From: Pseudooceanicola antarcticus
GTDB lineage: Bacteria; Pseudomonadota; Alphaproteobacteria; Rhodobacterales; Rhodobacteraceae
Direction: 5' to 3'
DNA length: 64,000 bases
NCBI RefSeq assembly: GCF_900215355.1
Contig: NZ_OBEA01000001.1
Coordinates: forward strand, 372,001 to 436,000
Part shown: positions 8,679 to 64,000 of the stretch, in pieces
Numbering within the stretch: position 1 is the stretch's first letter
Layout: each line of letters starts with the position of its first letter
Notes under the pieces: generated by a model
Database searches by the model: none
The model's input: the letters and a program-made list of their open reading frames with translations, nothing else
Told to the model about the DNA's origin: nothing
Translations under genes and position numbers: made by a program

Positions 8679-9617
8679 TCAGGGGGCTCCGCGCGGCGGG
8701 GCCCCTTTTGCCTTTCCCATCCCTCCATCGCCCATCTTGCCCGCTCCGCTCCCGCCGTGATCCGACGGATGCGCCTCGACATCGGCCCGTACCTGGGCAT
8801 GGGCGACAAGGGCGAAGATCAGCGTGCCGCCGATGACATTGCCCGCCAGCGTCGGCAGCCAGAACTCGCCCAGCACGGCGACCAGCCCCTCGTTGCCGAG
8901 GAAGACGAGGTAGAGCACCTCGACCGTGCCGGCGACAACGTGGGGGAAGTCCCCTAGCGAGATGATCCAGGTGGCGAGGAAGATCAGCGGCAACCGGGCC
9001 TGCGGCGCCGCCGCCATGGCCCAGACCAGCGTGGCGATCAGCCAGCCCGAGACGATGCCGCCGGCGAACATCTCGCCCGCGGGCTTGCCGATCAGGTGCA
9101 GCCCGATCTGCGCGAAGCTTTCCGAGGTCTCGGCATCGAAGAGCGGCATCCAGGCGAAAACCGCCGCGGCCACCGCACCGCCGATGGTATTGCCCGCCAG
9201 CACGATGCCCCAGAGCCGCAGCACCCGCCACAGCTTGGACAGGCGCGGCTGGGACATCAGCGGCAGCACCGGGGTGACGGTATTCTCGGTGAACAGCTGC
9301 TGCCCGGCACAGATGACGAAGATGAAGCCGACCGTGTAGCCCATGGCCTCGAAGAGAAAGCCGACCTCAGTCTCGGGCAGATGCGCATGCAGCAGGCCGC
9401 GCGCCATGAAGGAGGTCGCCATGGTGATGCCGCCCGCGATGGCGGACCACATCAGCGCCATGCCGTCGCGGTCCATCTCCTTCTCGCCGGCGCGGCGGAT
9501 CACCTCGTGGACGGCGGCGGCGGTCGAGGGCAGATGCGGCTCGAGCTCCTCGACATCGGCGGCGTCCGATTGCGGGGCCAGGTGGCCGGAGTCTCGGTCG
9601 TCGGAAAGATCGGTCAC
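8679..9617 (-). CDS. Formate/nitrite transporter (FNT) family channel
   Basis: A 312-residue membrane protein with the FNT pattern of about six membrane helices between residues 55 and 285. Diagnostic stretches are AGQQLFTENT, AGNTIGGAVAAAVFAW, GDFPHVVAGTVEVLYL and LAGNVIGGTLIFALVAH. FNT channels are pentameric and move formate, nitrite or hydrosulfide; the substrate cannot be assigned here. The N-terminal 50 residues are acidic and the C-terminus is a short basic Gly/Pro-rich tail encoded by the ilvE terminator hairpin, so the exact end may be under little protein-level constraint. Confidence 0.88.
   Translation of the reverse strand: MTDLSDDRDSGHLAPQSDAADVEELEPHLPSTAAAVHEVIRRAGEKEMDRDGMALMWSAIAGGITMATSFMARGLLHAHLPETEVGFLFEAMGYTVGFIFVICAGQQLFTENTVTPVLPLMSQPRLSKLWRVLRLWGIVLAGNTIGGAVAAAVFAWMPLFDAETSESFAQIGLHLIGKPAGEMFAGGIVSGWLIATLVWAMAAAPQARLPLIFLATWIISLGDFPHVVAGTVEVLYLVFLGNEGLVAVLGEFWLPTLAGNVIGGTLIFALVAHAQVRADVEAHPSDHGGSGAGKMGDGGMGKAKGAPPRGAP
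8681..8708 (+). terminator. Terminator of ilvE, embedded in the 3' end of the convergent FNT gene
   Basis: AGGGG at 8681-8685 pairs with CCCCT at 8702-8706, with a GC-rich imperfect inner stem, followed by TTTTG on the plus strand. It starts 34 bp after the ilvE stop and covers the last codons of the converging formate/nitrite channel gene. Confidence 0.6.
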
Positions 9618-9744
9618 GGCGGGCTCCAGTCACATCTGTTGTACAGATGGAACGCCCCCGGAGAGACCGGGTTCCGCCACGAGGCCGGGCCCGAAACGCG
9701 AAGGGGCGCCCCGCAGGACGCCCACTCTCGTACCGTGCGCCGGA

Positions 9745-27006: not shown

Positions 27007-27516
27007 CTACTCCGCCGCAGAGCGCTTGGGCAGCACCCAGTCGGGGCGCGGGAAGTGGCAGGTATAGCCGTTCGGGATGCGCTCCAGGTAATCCTGGTGC
27101 TCGGGCTCGGCTTCCCAGAAATCGCCCACGGGCTCGACCTCGGTGACCACCTTGCCGGGCCAGATGCCCGAGGCGTTCACATCGGCGATGGTATCCAGCG
27201 CCACCTGCTTCTGCTCTTCGTCCACGTAGTAGATGGCCGAGCGGTAGGACATGCCGATGTCATTGCCCTGGCGGTTCGGCGTGGTCGGATCATGGATCTG
27301 GAAGAAGAACTCCAGCAGATCGCGGTACGAGATCACCTCGGGGTCGTAGATGATCTCGATCCCCTCGGCATGGGTGCCGTGGTCGCGGTAGGTCGCATTG
27401 GGCACATCGCCGCCGGTATAGCCGACGCGGGTGCGGGCGACGCCGGGCTTCTTGCGGATCAGGTCCTGCATGCCCCAGAAACAGCCGCCGGCCAGAACTG
27501 CACGTGCTTCACTCAT
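27007..27516 (-). CDS. msrA: Peptide-methionine (S)-S-oxide reductase MsrA
   Basis: A 169-residue MsrA with the catalytic motif [11 protein letters not shown] (Cys in GCFW) near the N-terminus, [20 protein letters not shown] and [18 protein letters not shown], all conserved. It repairs the S epimer of methionine sulfoxide. No extra resolving-cysteine pair is seen at the C-terminus. The start at ATG 27516 overlaps the msrB stop in ATGA, and earlier codons belong to msrB. It lacks a signal peptide, so it is cytoplasmic. Confidence 0.95.
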
Positions 27517-27962
27517 TCCACTTCCTCCACTTGATCGAGGTATTTGCCGTAGCCCTCTGCCTCCATCTCGTCCTTGGGGACGAAACGCAGCGAGGCCGAA
27601 TTGATGCAATAGCGCAGCCCGCCGCGTTCGGTCGGACCATCGGGGAAGACATGGCCCAGGTGACTGTCGCCATGTTTCGAGCGCACCTCGATGCGCACCA
27701 TGCCATGGCTCTCGTCACGCAGGTTGACGATGTTCTCTTCCTCGATCGGCTTCACGAAGCTGGGCCAGCCACAGCCGCTTTCATATTTCGCCGAGGAGGC
27801 AAAAAGCGGCTCGCCCGAGACCACGTCAACGTAGATCCCGACCCGCTTGTTGCCCAGCAGGGCGCCTGTGAAGGGCCGCTCGGTGCCGCTTTCCTGGGTC
27901 ACCCGGTATTCCTCGGGGCTCAGTCGGGCGAGGGCCTCTTCGGTCTTGCGGTACTCCGTCAT
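27513..27962 (-). CDS. msrB: Peptide-methionine (R)-S-oxide reductase MsrB
   Basis: A 149-residue MsrB that repairs the R epimer. Motifs are [32 protein letters not shown] and the catalytic cysteine in [11 protein letters not shown]. The two CxxC zinc-binding pairs of the zinc form are absent. The ATG at 27962 is supported by GGAGGA five bases upstream, and the 20-codon upstream extension is rejected. It is the first gene of the msrB-msrA pair, so both epimers are repaired by one operon. Confidence 0.95.
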
Positions 27963-28248
27963 GGGTTCCTCCATTGCTGCTGCTTTATGTGGGCAAGCCT
28001 GGGCGAAAGGAAAGGGGCGCACCGGCGGAAGGCGTCAGAAACGGGGATGGGGCGGGATAGTTTCACCCAGGCCTGACCCCTGGCCAAAACCGGCAGCGGC
28101 TTGCCAACTGACGCGGGTTCGACAGGCAAGCCCCTGCCACCAAACGACTTTCCCTAAGACCGCAGGAACCGGGCCGCGCGGCCTTCCGTTGATGCAGCGA
28201 CCGGCACCAATCACCGGCCCATATTGAACTAACGTCAAAGGAAACGAC

Positions 28249-28803
28249 ATGACCACCAAGACCCGCTCCATCGCGCTCGCCACCCTGCTTGCCACCACCA
28301 TTTCCGGCGCCGCCATGGCCGATATCTCTCTCGATACCGGCGGCTCGCTCGGGGTGTCCGTCGGCGACAGCGGCATCAGCACCGACGGCGGCCTCTCGGT
28401 GAATGCCTCCGAAGACGGTCTGAACGCGGATCTGGGCGGCGCGCTGAACGCCGATGCCGATGGCGAAGCGGAAGGCTCGCTTGCCGCTGATGGCTCTGCC
28501 AATGTCTCGACCGATGAGGGTGAGGCCTCGGGCGGCCTGCTGCTCTCGAGCATGCTGGACGGCGACGAGCTGAACGCCACCACGGTGACCGAGCTGATGG
28601 CCAAGGGCTCCATCGACGAAGAGGGCCTGGACGCCGCCGTTTCGGCCAACGCCGAGGCCATTGCCTCGATGCGCGACGCCATTGCCGCAGATGCCGAGCT
28701 TTCGGCTGCCCTGGACGCGGAAGGCTATGCCGCAGAGGACGTGATCGGCGCCCAGGCAATGGCCGATGGCAGCACCCGCCTGGTGATCGACGACCGCAGC
28801 TGA
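28249..28803 (+). CDS. Secreted acidic repeat protein with a C-terminal domain shared with the next gene
   Basis: A 184-residue protein of unknown function. A Sec signal peptide (about 1-24, ending SGAAMA) is followed by an Asp/Gly/Ala-rich, highly acidic segment (25-105) with loose repeats such as SEDGLNADLGGALNADADGE. The last 49 residues (136-184) align without gaps to the last 49 residues of the protein at 29112-29936, with 18 identities, including R at alignment position 7, EG at 23-24, DV at 29-30, DGS at 38-40 and DDR at 46-48. There are no cysteines. AAAGGA before the ATG supports the start. A clear terminator follows, so it is its own transcription unit. It may sit in the periplasm or outside the cell. 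Confidence 0.75.
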   Translation: MTTKTRSIALATLLATTISGAAMADISLDTGGSLGVSVGDSGISTDGGLSVNASEDGLNADLGGALNADADGEAEGSLAADGSANVSTDEGEASGGLLLSSMLDGDELNATTVTELMAKGSIDEEGLDAAVSANAEAIASMRDAIAADAELSAALDAEGYAAEDVIGAQAMADGSTRLVIDDRS

Positions 28804-28853
28804 TCCCCGGATCAGCGCCGCTTTTCCAGGCGCGCCAAGGTTTGAAAACGGAT

Positions 28854-28884
28854 GCCTCCGCCCGGTTCGGGCGGGGGCTTTTCG
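28854..28884 (+). terminator. Rho-independent terminator after the first acidic repeat protein
   Basis: An 11-bp stem (GCCTCCGCCCG with CGGGCGGGGGC, one G-T pair) closes on a 3-nt loop at 28865-28867 and is followed by TTTTCG. It lies about 50 bp after the stop at 28803. Confidence 0.8.
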
Positions 28885-28921
28885 CGTTTATCGGCAAGAA
28901 TTCGCCGGCACACGGAACATC

Positions 28922-28984
28922 ACGTTAACGTTTGATTCACAAGAGATTCTTGTCTCGTCAAATGCTTTGGTCACAAATTTGACC
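28922..28984. promoter_or_regulatory. Cluster of three palindromes upstream of the second acidic repeat protein
   Basis: Three separate dyads occur in 63 bp: ACGTTAACGT (28922-28931, perfect), ACAAGA-GAT-TCTTGT (28939-28953, perfect 6-bp arms) and GGTCA-CAAATT-TGACC (28969-28984, 5-bp arms). The region is AT-rich relative to the genome and lies 130-190 bp upstream of the start at 29112, where a promoter would be expected. It could be a multi-operator control region. No regulator gene is adjacent. Confidence 0.45.
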
Positions 28985-29111
28985 CTCTCGACAGGAGCGA
29001 AAATTCGCCAACTCTCCCCCTGGTTGCAACCGCCTCTGCGTCTCTCACGTTTCTTCCATGCAAGGCCCGGACATTATTCCGGCCCCAACGAGCTGATGGA
29101 GGAAGTAGCTC

Positions 29112-29936
29112 ATGACTGGTACATTTATTAAGAAAGCAGCACTTACTACCGCCGTACTCGCCCTTATGGCCCCCGCCGCGGCGCAGGCAGACATTGGATT
29201 GGACGTTGATCTGGGGCTGGATGACGGCGTCCAGGCAGACGTCGACCTGGACCTCGGTCTGGGCGGAGATGACGGGGTGAACGCGGATGCCGACGTCGGC
29301 CTCGGTATCGGCGGCGACGATGGCGTGAACGCCGACGCAGACCTGAATGCCGGGCTCGGTGGCAGTGACGGCGTCACTGCGGATGCCGACATCGGCGCCG
29401 GTCTGGGCGGCGGTGACGGCGTTACCGCTGATGCCGATGTCGTGGCCGGTGTCGGTGGCGATGATGGGCTGGGCGTCGACGCAGAGGTCGATGCAGATGT
29501 CCTGAGCCAGTCGATTGCCGATCTGGGCGCCGATCTGGGCGTGACCACCAACGGCGGCTCGGGTTCCGGTGGCTCCGGCACGGGCACCACCACCGCGCAG
29601 GGCACCACGACCAGCACCACCACGACGAACACCACCGGTGGAAATACCTTCGCCTTTGCCGATACCAGCACCTCTGTGGTCGCCACGGCCCCGCCCTCGG
29701 CCTTCGGCCTGGTGACGGTGACCCAGCTGCAGCGCCGCCGCGAGATCGACCTGCAATGGTTCGACTGGAAGATCTCTCAGTCGCAGGGCTGGATCGCCAA
29801 CCTGCGCCAGCGCGTGGCCTCGAACCGTCCGCTGGCCTCCTGGCTGGTCGGTGAAGGCTGGTGGCCCCAGGATGTGGTGGGCTTCTACCGCAAGACCGAT
29901 GGCAGCCTCTGGCTGATCGTCGACGACCGCGCCTGA
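29112..29936 (+). CDS. Secreted acidic 16-residue-repeat protein with shared C-terminal domain
   Basis: A 274-residue protein of unknown function. A signal peptide (1-26, ending APAAAQA) is followed by about five imperfect 16-residue repeats (roughly 40-120) of the form D-hydrophobic-xx-G-x-GG-x-DGV-x-ADA. A Ser/Thr/Gly-rich linker (about 145-175: GSGSGGSGTGTTTAQGTTT) leads to a basic, aromatic C-terminal region (about 205-274). The final 49 residues are homologous to the end of the upstream gene product. The regular acidic repeats could form a beta-solenoid or bind divalent cations, but they are not canonical RTX nonapeptides. GGAGGAAG before the ATG supports the start. Confidence 0.78.
   Translation: MTGTFIKKAALTTAVLALMAPAAAQADIGLDVDLGLDDGVQADVDLDLGLGGDDGVNADADVGLGIGGDDGVNADADLNAGLGGSDGVTADADIGAGLGGGDGVTADADVVAGVGGDDGLGVDAEVDADVLSQSIADLGADLGVTTNGGSGSGGSGTGTTTAQGTTTSTTTTNTTGGNTFAFADTSTSVVATAPPSAFGLVTVTQLQRRREIDLQWFDWKISQSQGWIANLRQRVASNRPLASWLVGEGWWPQDVVGFYRKTDGSLWLIVDDRA
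29190..29477 (+). repeat. Imperfect 48-bp tandem repeats coding for a 16-residue protein repeat
   Basis: About five tandem units of 48 bp lie within the gene at 29112. Each carries a GGC-x-GATGACGGCGTGAAC-like core encoding GG-x-DGV. The protein sequence is better conserved than the DNA, which suggests selection on the protein repeat and not a recent DNA expansion. Confidence 0.75.
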
Positions 29937-30004: not shown

Positions 30005-31072
30005 TCATGCGGAGGGCAGCCGGTCGAGGGCCCAGCGGGCCGCCTCGGCCAGGGTCGGATCGGGGTCCTCGGCCAGCGGCGCCACCGCCGTGCGCAGATC
30101 GGCCCGGCCCGAGTTGCCGATGGCATAGGCCACGTTGCGCAGGAAACGGTCCCGTCCGATGCGCTTGATCGGAGACCCCGAGAACCGCGCCCGGAACGCC
30201 GCATCATCAAGCCCCGCCAGCTCTGCCAGCGCGGGGGCGTTCAGGTCGTCGCGGGCGTGGTACTTCACCTCTGATGCGCGGCGGGCGAACTTGTTCCAGG
30301 GACAGACCGCAAGGCAGTCATCGCAGCCGTAGATCCGATTGCCGAGCGCCGGGCGCAGCTCTTCGGGCACCGGGCCCTTGTGCTCGATCGTCAGGTAGGA
30401 AATGCAGCGCCGCGCATCAAGCTGGTAGGGCGCGGGGAAGGCATCGGTCGGGCAGGCATCCAGGCAGCGGCGGCACTGGCCGCAATGGTCGACCTCCGGC
30501 GCGTCGCGCGGCAGCTCCAGCGTGGTGAAGATGGCGCCCAGGAAGAACCAGCTGCCCAGCTCGCGGCTGACCAGGTTGGTGTGCTTGCCCTGCCAGCCCA
30601 GCCCGGCGGCCTGGCCCAGGGCCTTTTCCGGCACCGGCGCGGTATCGACGAAGACCTTCACCTGCGCCGCCGCGCCATCCTCCTGGGGCCCGGCCTCGGC
30701 GATGAGCCAGCGCGCCAGCCGCTTCAGGCGCTTCTTGACCACATCGTGGTAGTCCTTGTTCTGCGCATAGACCGAGATACCCGCCCGGTCGGGTTGCTCC
30801 AGCACCGCCAGCGGATCATGGTCGGGTCCGTAGTTCTCGGCCAGCATGATGATACTCTGCGCCTCGGGCCAGAGCTGCGCCGGGTCGCCGCGCCAGTGGC
30901 TGCGCTCTTCCATCCACTGCATCTGGCCGTGGAAACCCGCCTCGAGAAAGGCCTGCAGCCGCCCGGCCACCTGCGGCACCGCCTCGGGCGCGCAGATGCG
31001 CACGGCGGAAAAGCCCTCGGCCAGGGCCTGCCGTTTCAGCGTTTCGACAAGGGTGTCGCCGGGCATCGTCAT
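30005..31072 (-). CDS. queG: Epoxyqueuosine reductase
   Basis: QueG reduces epoxyqueuosine to queuosine in tRNA wobble position 34, using cobalamin and two [4Fe-4S] clusters. The ferredoxin-like cysteine motifs are [12 protein letters not shown] and [10 protein letters not shown]. Upstream conserved segments are [18 protein letters not shown] and [19 protein letters not shown]. The C-terminal HEAT-like part contains [15 protein letters not shown]. The ATG at 31072 (MTMPGDTL) is my start; an ATG two codons later is equally possible. The protein is 355 residues, normal for the family. Confidence 0.95.
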
Positions 31073-31132
31073 GGGCACCGTTCTGCCAGAAAACACCGGC
31101 AAGGGCCATCGGCGGCCCGTCTTGCGCGCAGA

Positions 31133-32874: not shown

Positions 32875-33174
32875 TTACTCGGCATAGACGAAGGGGGTCT
32901 GAGCAGCCGCGTCGTCCTCATCGGAGACGAAGAAGGAGTTCAGGACCGAAGTGTCGCCGCGCGAGGTCGCGTTGGAGGCTTCTTCGTAGACGAAGGGGGT
33001 CTGACGAGCGGCGTCTTCGGTGCCGCGGTTCACGCGGACCACGGTCGGAGCGGCGTTTTCAGCTGCGCCATAGACGAAGGGGGTTTGCTCGGCTGCGTCA
33101 TCGCTTGCGAAGGCGGCGGTGGTGGCGGAGGCGGCGATCAGGGTTGCGATGCCGAAGGCTTTGAGGGTTTTCAT
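32875..33174 (-). CDS. Small secreted protein with three QTPFVY repeats
   Basis: A 99-residue protein of unknown function. The start at ATG 33174 gives a textbook signal peptide (MKTLKAFGIATLIAASATTA, ending AFA). The mature part of about 76 residues is acidic and carries three copies of the same element: DDAAEQTPFVYG, EDAARQTPFVYEE and DDAAAQTPFVYAE, the last forming the C-terminus. The copies are spaced by about 25-33 residues. There are no cysteines. I know of no family with this motif. It has its own AT-rich upstream region and its own terminator, so it is an independent gene. It may be periplasmic or surface-exposed. Confidence 0.75.
   Translation of the reverse strand: MKTLKAFGIATLIAASATTAAFASDDAAEQTPFVYGAAENAAPTVVRVNRGTEDAARQTPFVYEEASNATSRGDTSVLNSFFVSDEDDAAAQTPFVYAE
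32884..33105 (-). repeat. Three dispersed copies of a short coding repeat
   Basis: On the plus strand the sequence TAGACGAAGGGGGTCTG or a one-base variant occurs starting at about 32884, 32986 and 33070, each followed by a GC-rich stretch encoding the DDAA part. The DNA copies are nearly identical over the QTPFVY-coding part, so a recent duplication or gene conversion is possible. Confidence 0.75.
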
Positions 33175-33453
33175 TTCTAAATCCACTTCTTGAGTTGTCG
33201 GCGCCGGCTTGTTTCGTTTGCGGCGTCGTCTGATGGAATGAAGATAGGGGTCGCCTCGGGCAGAGTGAAGTGCATCCATGCACATCAAACATCGCAAAAT
33301 GGCCCGACAGTTTTCAGGAAAACATACAGATCAAACTAAGTATCTGATTTTTATGTATTTTCATAATTCATTCCAGACTGAACAAATAGACTTACAAGTT
33401 CAAAACTAGCCGAAATCCGCCGCTTGAAAGCCTGAAATCGTCCCCAAAACGCA
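33175..33453. promoter_or_regulatory. AT-rich promoter region of the QTPFVY gene, with a palindrome
   Basis: This noncoding stretch contains a markedly AT-rich patch (about 33310-33410) and, 96 bp upstream of the ATG, the perfect inverted repeat GTGCAT-CC-ATGCAC at 33270-33283. The palindrome has the form of an operator. No exact promoter boxes are assigned. Confidence 0.4.
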
Positions 33454-62362: not shown

Positions 62363-64000
62363 ATGGGTAAAGTGATCGGGATTGACCTCGGCACCACCAA
62401 CTCCTGCGTCGCCATTATGGATGGCGCACAGCCGAAAGTTATCGAAAACTCCGAAGGCGCACGTACCACGCCTTCGATCGTCGCCTTCACCGATGAAGAG
62501 CGGCTGGTCGGCCAGAGCGCAAAGCGCCAGGCCGTCACCAACTCCACCAACACCATCTTCGGCGTGAAGCGCCTGATCGGCCGTCGTGCAGACGACGCGG
62601 ATCTGGCCAAGGACCTGAAGAACCTGCCGTTCAACGTCATCGACGGCGGCAACGGTGATGCATGGGTGGAATCCAAGGGCGAGAAGTACTCTCCCAGCCA
62701 GATTTCCGCCTTCATCCTCGGCAAGATGAAGGAAACCGCCGAGAGCTACCTCGGCGAAGAAGTCGACCAGGCGGTCATCACCGTCCCGGCCTACTTCAAC
62801 GACGCCCAGCGTCAGGCCACCAAGGATGCCGGCAAGATCGCCGGTCTGGAAGTGCTGCGGATCATCAACGAGCCGACCGCCGCTGCCCTCGCCTATGGCC
62901 TGGACAAGGAAGAAAGCCACACCATCGCGGTCTATGACCTCGGCGGCGGTACCTTCGACGTCACGATCCTGGAAATCGACGACGGCCTGTTTGAAGTGAA
63001 GTCGACCAACGGCGACACCTTCCTGGGTGGCGAAGACTTCGACATGCGGATCGTCAACTACCTGGCCGGCGAGTTCAAGAAAGAGCACAACGTCGACCTG
63101 ACCCAGGACAAGATGGCCCTGCAGCGTCTGAAGGAAGCCGCCGAAAAGGCCAAGATCGAGCTCTCCTCCAGCCAGTCGACCGAGATCAACCAGCCCTTCA
63201 TCTCGATGGGTGCCAACGGTCAGCCCCTGCACATGGTCATGAAGCTGACCCGTGCCAAGCTGGAAAGCCTGGTGGGTGACCTGATCAAGGGCTCGCTGAA
63301 GCCCTGCCAGGCAGCCCTGAAGGATGCGGGCCTGTCCACCTCCGACATCGACGAAGTCGTTCTGGTCGGCGGCATGACCCGCATGCCGAAGGTCATCGAA
63401 GAGGTGACCAAGTTCTTCGGCAAGGAACCCCACAAGGGCGTGAACCCGGATGAAGTCGTCGCCATGGGCGCCGCCATCCAGGCCGGCGTTCTGCAGGGTG
63501 ACGTGAAGGACGTGGTCCTGCTGGACGTGACCCCGCTGTCCCTGGGCATCGAAACCCTGGGCGGTGTCTTCACCCGCCTGATCGACCGCAACACGACCAT
63601 CCCCACCAAGAAGTCCCAGGTCTTCTCGACCGCCGAGGACAACCAGAACGCCGTGACGATCCGCGTGTTCCAGGGTGAGCGTGAGATGGCCGCCGACAAC
63701 AAGATGCTCGGCCAGTTCAACCTGGAAGACATCCCGCCGGCGCCGCGTGGCATGCCCCAGATCGAGGTGACCTTCGACATCGACGCCAACGGCATCGTGT
63801 CGGTCTCTGCCAAGGACAAGGGCACCAACAAGGAGCAGAAGATCACCATCCAGGCCTCCGGTGGCCTCTCGGACAGCGACATCGAACAGATGGTCAAGGA
63901 CGCCGAGGAGAACGCCGAGGCGGACAAGCAGCGCCGCGAGCTGGTGGAAGCCACCAACCAGGCGGAAAGCCTGATCCACTCGACCGAGAAGTCGATCGAG
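62363..64000 (+). CDS. dnaK: Chaperone DnaK (Hsp70), truncated by the window end
   Basis: The first 546 residues are present and open at the window end; a full DnaK has about 640. The ATPase domain has [57 protein letters not shown] and [11 protein letters not shown]. The substrate-binding domain begins after the linker region near 390 ([19 protein letters not shown]). It refolds proteins with DnaJ and GrpE; dnaJ is usually downstream. An AGAAGGG ribosome site precedes the ATG at 62363. Confidence 0.98.

Follow-up and report, generated by a model that had tools for sequence, protein, structure and literature searches.

Two adjacent genes on the plus strand of the analysed window (the whole stretch of 64,000 nucleotides from Pseudooceanicola antarcticus) encode acidic proteins, here called P1 and P2, that end in the same conserved domain. 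Both open reading frames lie where the initial annotation had placed them, and the positions of the genes, of their parts and of their neighbours are collected in Table 1.

Table 1. Features of the P1/P2 locus (positions in the window)
Feature	Position	Strand	Basis or remark
msrA-msrB (presumed), left border of conserved slot	27007..28022	-	synteny
P1 EcfG-type promoter (putative), GGAAC-N17-CGTT, 9/9	28165..28190	+	starts 84 nt before ATG
P1, 184 aa acidic protein, predicted exported	28249..28803	+	signal-like segment, low-complexity acidic stalk, C-terminal domain
P1 signal-peptide-like segment, ends in AMA	28249..28320	+	rule-based: hydrophobic core and AxA motif
P1 C-terminal conserved domain, last residues VIDDRS	28546..28800	+	sequence alignment
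P2 EcfG-type promoter (putative), GCAAC-N17-CGTT, 8/9	29026..29051	+	starts 86 nt before ATG
P2, 274 aa acidic protein, predicted exported	29112..29936	+	signal-like segment, 16-aa acidic repeats, Gly/Thr-rich linker, C-terminal domain
P2 repeats, five 16-residue units, residues 51-130	29262..29501	+	sequence and Tandem Repeats Finder
P2 C-terminal conserved domain, last residues IVDDRA	29676..29933	+	alignment; end modelled helix-helix-strand-strand
queG-like gene (presumed), right border of conserved slot	30005..31102	-	synteny

The best local alignment of P1 with P2 runs over 73 residues without a gap and reaches a BLOSUM62 score of 120, whereas the best score in 2000 shuffles of the C-terminal part of P1 is 35; the last 73 residues of the two proteins hold 26 identities. 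An ungapped match of residues 136-184 of P1 with residues 226-274 of P2, with 18 identities in 49 positions and the ends DDRS and DDRA, had been reported before and is correct but understated, being the end of this longer match. The Asp/Gly-rich repeats that the initial annotation ascribed to both proteins are found in P2 only, as five copies of a 16-residue unit of about GGDDGVNADADVGLGI, for which Tandem Repeats Finder gives a period of 48 bp and 5.1 copies at 29220-29464. The program reports no array in the P1 stalk, which is irregular and acidic, and its sole row for P1 lies in the domain, where a 21-bp unit occurs twice (28653-28694). The comparison thus bears out the earlier view of the shared end as a homologous domain joined to variable acidic stalks. 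Judged by sequence, the two are tandem paralogues and belong to a family that has no name.

The conserved C-terminal domain of this family is about 105 residues long and has homologues well beyond the two proteins, so that the alternative foreseen in the initial annotation, a block confined to this pair, did not occur. With an 18-row profile, 18 of the 394 genomes searched in this bacterial family and 16 of the 22 genomes of the genus are positive, and at class level the profile matches two of 385 genomes, namely the own genome and one with a marginal match. The C-terminus of P2 alone, used as query, finds four of 198 genomes of the bacterial family, the own genome included. A five-row profile gave 20 of 394, two of them rejected as spurious (matches L029 and L030, judged by eye). 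In the 394-genome searches at most 13 (five-row profile) or 12 (18-row profile) candidates were scored per genome, and the first-look filter may miss divergent members; a 41-row profile, with up to 34 candidates scored per genome, returned seven positives in 139 genomes, all among the 18. A match in G750 (E = 5e-4) and a second weak match in G047 (L054, E = 6e-4) were left out of the counts. In total 44 members were collected, 21 outside the genus and 23 inside it (P1 and P2 included). Alignment A2 has 18 rows, with L028, L032 and L033 excluded; alignment A4 holds 41 of the 44 members, with L076, L072 and the second L057 gene excluded.

Among the relatives are a protein of Carideicomes alvinocaridis and three plasmid-borne ones, from Pelagibacterium sp. 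H642 (47% identity), Paracoccus liaowanqingii and Thioclava nitratireducens, the last being weak in tblastn (E = 4e-3) yet scoring 69 bits with the profile. Since the Pelagibacterium plasmid belongs to a member of the Devosiaceae, the domain reaches beyond the roseobacters. Among the products annotated next to the gene on the Paracoccus plasmid are a ferritin-like protein, a PRC-barrel protein, an HWE histidine kinase and a response regulator. Phage records and viral contigs, each searched with one query, gave no match. L106, L108, L073 and L109-L111 represent two divergent domain subfamilies in which, by eye, Gly/Asp repeats are absent. A shortened P1-type remnant (L121 of genome G781, 1854-2498) is missing much of the domain but still has its signal segment and a DDR-like end; the same genome carries a P2-type gene at L103, between the border genes given in Table 1.

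The initial annotation knew of no named family with this end, and the library searches agree: no match of P1, P2 or their relatives above the curated cut-off was seen in Pfam or NCBIfam, and PHROGs, a library without a cut-off, returned weak and scattered matches only. Membership of the block in an already described domain, which these searches looked for, was not found. No weak family match is common to more than two of the 18 A2 rows; in the searches over these rows, cut-offs were displayed for the first row only. KIAA1549, WHEP-TRS, HprR and DevB, at E-values of 2e-4 to 8e-4 in single rows, were rejected as unshared and, where the cut-off is shown, below it. We discarded dTale2 (5e-5) and BURRH (2e-11) because their E-values sum many weak stretches, none of which passes alone. 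PRC-barrel, a further candidate, is absent from every Pfam list for the family. The sequence search of the PDB gave no usable match, and the best Foldseek match to the PDB of a domain model (pLDDT = 70.9, pTM = 0.59) has an E-value of 1.4. The protein family is therefore unnamed in the libraries searched.

The architecture is common to the family: a signal-like segment, a variable stalk rich in Gly, Ala and Asp, with a length of 10 to 218 residues among the 44 members, and the C-terminal domain. In a rule-based test an AxA motif occurs in 41 of 44 members and a hydrophobic core follows the chosen start; as start codons were picked by a rule that rewards signal-like segments, this signal is partly built in. 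The mature part is free of cysteine in all 44 members (the signal segment contains one in two of them), and the mature pI lies below 4.5 in 42 of them. The sequence ends in DD followed by two residues in 31 of 44 members, 26 of which read DDR and one further residue. Within the 41 aligned domains Leu79, Gly83, Val89 and Asp105 (first-row numbering) are at least 90% conserved.

The domain model mentioned above, made for the Carideicomes protein from three sequences, shows a first stretch with pLDDT below 50 and then a helix, a strand, four helices and two further strands. A model of P2 made without an alignment has poor overall confidence (46.3), its last ~50 residues being arranged helix-helix-strand-strand with pLDDT of 67-80. 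In all 16 orthologue pairs compared the domain is free of gaps, whereas the stalk is gapped in 15. Among the window and the two loci of the closest species (L099 and L100), dN/dS is 0.12-0.30 for the domain and 0.14-0.58 for the stalk; in distant P2 pairs the values are 0.46-0.63 for the domain versus 0.29-0.37 for the stalk, the domain there not being the more constrained part.

The two genes sit between what we take to be msrA-msrB, encoding methionine sulfoxide reductases, and a gene that is presumably queG-like. Of 17 further loci of the genus, 11 have family genes in this msrAB-queG slot and the other six lie elsewhere; P1-type and P2-type genes occur together in it at three of the 11 (L099, L100 and L102). 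The genes of L109-L111 occupy the slot too, despite N-terminal parts of entirely different appearance. Outside the genus, msrA, msrB, queG and gst recur as neighbours at two of the loci L057-L073, namely L068 and L071, and L057, L069 and L070 have neighbours in common; apart from the slot, no conserved operon partner was found. In five genomes of the genus the 1.5 kb before msrB hold neither a family gene nor the promoter motif described below. In the domain tree the P1-type genes (four rows, 99/93) and the P2-type genes (five rows, 96/93) form separate clades, with the bootstrap not settled, and the duplication therefore looks older than these species. Farther along the window, the product of a minus-strand gene (32875-33297) is a small protein that has a signal-like N-terminus and contains AAxQTPFVY three times; in L099 and L100 related genes follow past mtgA in an unchanged order.

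A close examination of the upstream regions identified a promoter-like element in front of both genes (Table 1), a feature absent from the initial annotation and more informative than any other seen here. Its motif agrees with the published EcfG consensus (PMC12148442, PMC6599016), written GGAAC-N16-17-C/GGTT in a legend of PMC12148442, and the GCAAC form seen before P2 also precedes, with a spacer of 16, the P2-type genes of L099, L100, L102 and L103; GCAAC variants occur among the EcfG-regulated genes tabulated for Sphingomonas melonis (PMC6599016). In a strict scan (positions -120 to -20, spacer 16 or 17), GGAAC-N16/17-CGTT is present at no fewer than 8 of 9 positions before 34 of the 44 members, with a median site start of -79.5. 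Among control genes, drawn from 19 loci (the window and L056-L073, the genus loci L095-L111 not being among them), 6 of 157 have such a site, as do 5 of the 97 whose free upstream region is 100 nt or longer; the rate in 8800 dinucleotide shuffles is 2.6%. Members from outside the genus, taken by themselves, give 15 of 21 (Fisher p = 1e-12). Sites with 9 of 9 positions are weakly enriched (3/21 outside the genus versus 3/157 controls, p = 0.02), and a control gene with a perfect site, at locus L073 of the Carideicomes genome, itself encodes an EcfG-like sigma factor. Ten members have no 8/9 site in the strict window, among them L058, whose perfect site lies too close to the chosen start. A preset-free dyad scan over 30 of the 44 members, chosen to thin close relatives, ranks GGAAC-N17/18-GTT first, with 10/30 versus a maximum of 7 in 30 shuffle sets. 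A wider scan (spacers 15-18, 200 nt) had given 40 of 44 members and 23 of 178 controls at 8/9 or better, and was replaced by the strict one because its controls still held family genes. The terminator scan after P1 found nothing on the plus strand, so that the two promoter-like sites alone speak for separate transcription of P1 and P2.

The window contains three exact sites where 0.74 are expected on average, a number reached by 4 of 100 shuffles. Besides that of P1, one lies on the minus strand at 9651-9675 (GGAAC-N16-CGTT), where a gene of this strand may start with a GTG at 9617, ~33 nt farther on; by eye its product resembles a formate/nitrite-type transporter. The third, also on the minus strand (63647-63671), falls inside a gene on the other strand that by eye is dnaK-like, and is probably there by chance.

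The family co-occurs with the regulator: in the 394-genome set a NepR match is present in 18 of 18 family-carrying genomes versus 188 of 394 overall, with a hypergeometric p-value of 1.05e-6 that is uncorrected for the relatedness of the genomes and comes from a search scoring at most 19 candidates per genome; the figure of 188 is possibly too low and the p-value therefore possibly too good. In the genus 20 of 22 genomes have NepR, and one genome of the same genus (G786), which is 66% complete, has a family gene and no NepR match. Most NepR-positive genomes are without the family (170 of 188, and 5 of 20 within the genus), which makes the family an accessory member of any such regulon. In the own genome an EcfG-like sigma factor, NepR, PhyR and an HWE/HisKA2 kinase are encoded side by side (L115), with Pfam matches to Sigma70_r2/r4_2, NepR, PhyR_sigma2, PhyR_sigma-like with Response_reg, and HisKA_2; in the other genomes presence of the regulator was judged by NepR alone.

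Taken with the signal-like segments and the low pI, these observations suggest a reading that we consider rather likely on sequence grounds, namely that P1 and P2 are EcfG-induced, Sec-exported acidic envelope proteins of the alphaproteobacterial general stress response. Stress would activate the HWE/HisKA2 kinase, NepR would be captured by PhyR and EcfG thereby released, and EcfG would transcribe P1 and P2 from the GGAAC/GCAAC-N17-CGTT promoters. The products would then leave the cytoplasm via Sec, the default destination of such proteins in Gram-negative cells being the periplasm. In the envelope the conserved ~105-residue alpha/beta domain may be the working or docking module, and the fast-changing acidic stalk, with its repeats in P2, may serve as a hydrated polyanionic spacer or ion buffer. 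We infer EcfG-dependent expression, export and an envelope site from the features above, which also suggest a docking role for the domain and protection of the cell envelope under stress. PhyR of R. sphaeroides, according to PMC5830050, matters in membrane stress and UV survival and has no major role in general or oxidative stress; the former fits an envelope role and the latter warns against assuming a broad response. An unnamed exported family would in this way gain a likely regulatory home, and a family under this promoter type is a ready candidate for the envelope effect of that response.

The surroundings of the two genes resemble the known EcfG (PhyR-NepR-sigmaEcfG) regulon in the promoter GGAAC-N16/17-[CG]GTT, in the NepR of the carrying genomes and in the ecfG-nepR-phyR-kinase locus of the own genome; the difference is that the libraries searched contain no described relative of the P1/P2 type of protein. 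Many ECF factors have a GGAAC-like -35 element, so another such factor might drive the genes outside the EcfG regulon. However, the second element and the spacing fit the EcfG consensus and NepR is matched in all 18 positive genomes of the 394-genome set, and we regard this explanation as very improbable.

As to what the proteins do, the domain could instead be a small periplasmic inhibitor or chaperone-like module, with a PepSY- or BON-like role, whose binding partner under stress would be a periplasmic enzyme or unfolded protein, while the stalk would merely provide solubility. The predicted alpha/beta nature of the domain would suit this, as would the parallel with OsmY of E. coli, a stress-induced periplasmic protein with BON domains, which is alike in outline (exported, small and stress-regulated, properties inferred on the P1/P2 side) but is under another sigma factor and lacks an acidic stalk. 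No sequence relation of OsmY to the family was found, its hhalign probability against the family profile being 0.1% (one sequence, not a BON profile). PepSY_2 matches two of eight full-length proteins: once within the domain (L020, residues 136-156, E = 0.023, 15.2 bits) and once in the signal segment (L012, residues 11-31, 13.1 bits), both under the cut-off of 24.3, and it is absent among the 25 families listed for the 18 A2 rows. With no fold match in the PDB either, we think an inhibitor or chaperone rather unlikely. A surface adhesin or matrix protein, in which the domain would be an outer-membrane anchor and the acidic repeats a Ca2+-binding stalk of RTX- or biofilm-like type, draws on the anatomy of P2 (signal-like segment, 16-residue Gly/Asp repeats, Gly/Thr-rich linker before the domain), on the variable stalk length and on a weak match of the P2 linker to Pfam New_glue (E = 0.011, 15.9 bits). 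That match is far under the 31-bit cut-off and covers the Thr-rich linker (residues 150-193), not the domain; a Pfam search of P1 and P2 up to E = 1 returned no calcium-binding family, a conserved partner gene is missing beside the genes, and many members are by eye without regular repeats. RTX proteins share with P2 the Gly/Asp-rich repeats, but their repeat is the nonapeptide GGxGxDxUx, whereas the P2 unit has 16 residues and neither P1 nor P2 has such a Pfam match. An adhesin is in our opinion unlikely.

Among exported proteins of similar build, PRC-barrel proteins such as the neighbour of the Paracoccus liaowanqingii plasmid gene (L076) have a signal-like segment, a repeat-rich acidic N-terminal part and an annotated C-terminal domain, the latter being a different, named domain; a PRC-barrel gene is listed as EcfG-regulated in Sphingomonas melonis (PMC6599016). 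A bolder form of the EcfG reading, which we offer as speculative and rather doubtful, would see in the family an undescribed envelope module: an alpha/beta domain of new fold with a functional face at its extreme C-terminus (VDDR), displaying fast-evolving polyanionic stalks at the command of PhyR/EcfG as a stress-switched acidic shield of Rhodobacteraceae. Searches of the open-licence literature on the general stress response, combined with secreted or periplasmic proteins in Rhodobacteraceae, with roseobacters and with Paracoccus, turned up no paper on such proteins, judged by title and the opening of the abstract.

The EcfG regulon itself is known, and perfect sites of its type were also seen near family genes at three loci, before an unannotated gene of L065 (10030-10587), a gene for a DJ-1/PfpI protein in L068 (120-677) and one for a Host_attach/baeRF12 protein in L069 (6449-6907), which are possible further members of the regulon.
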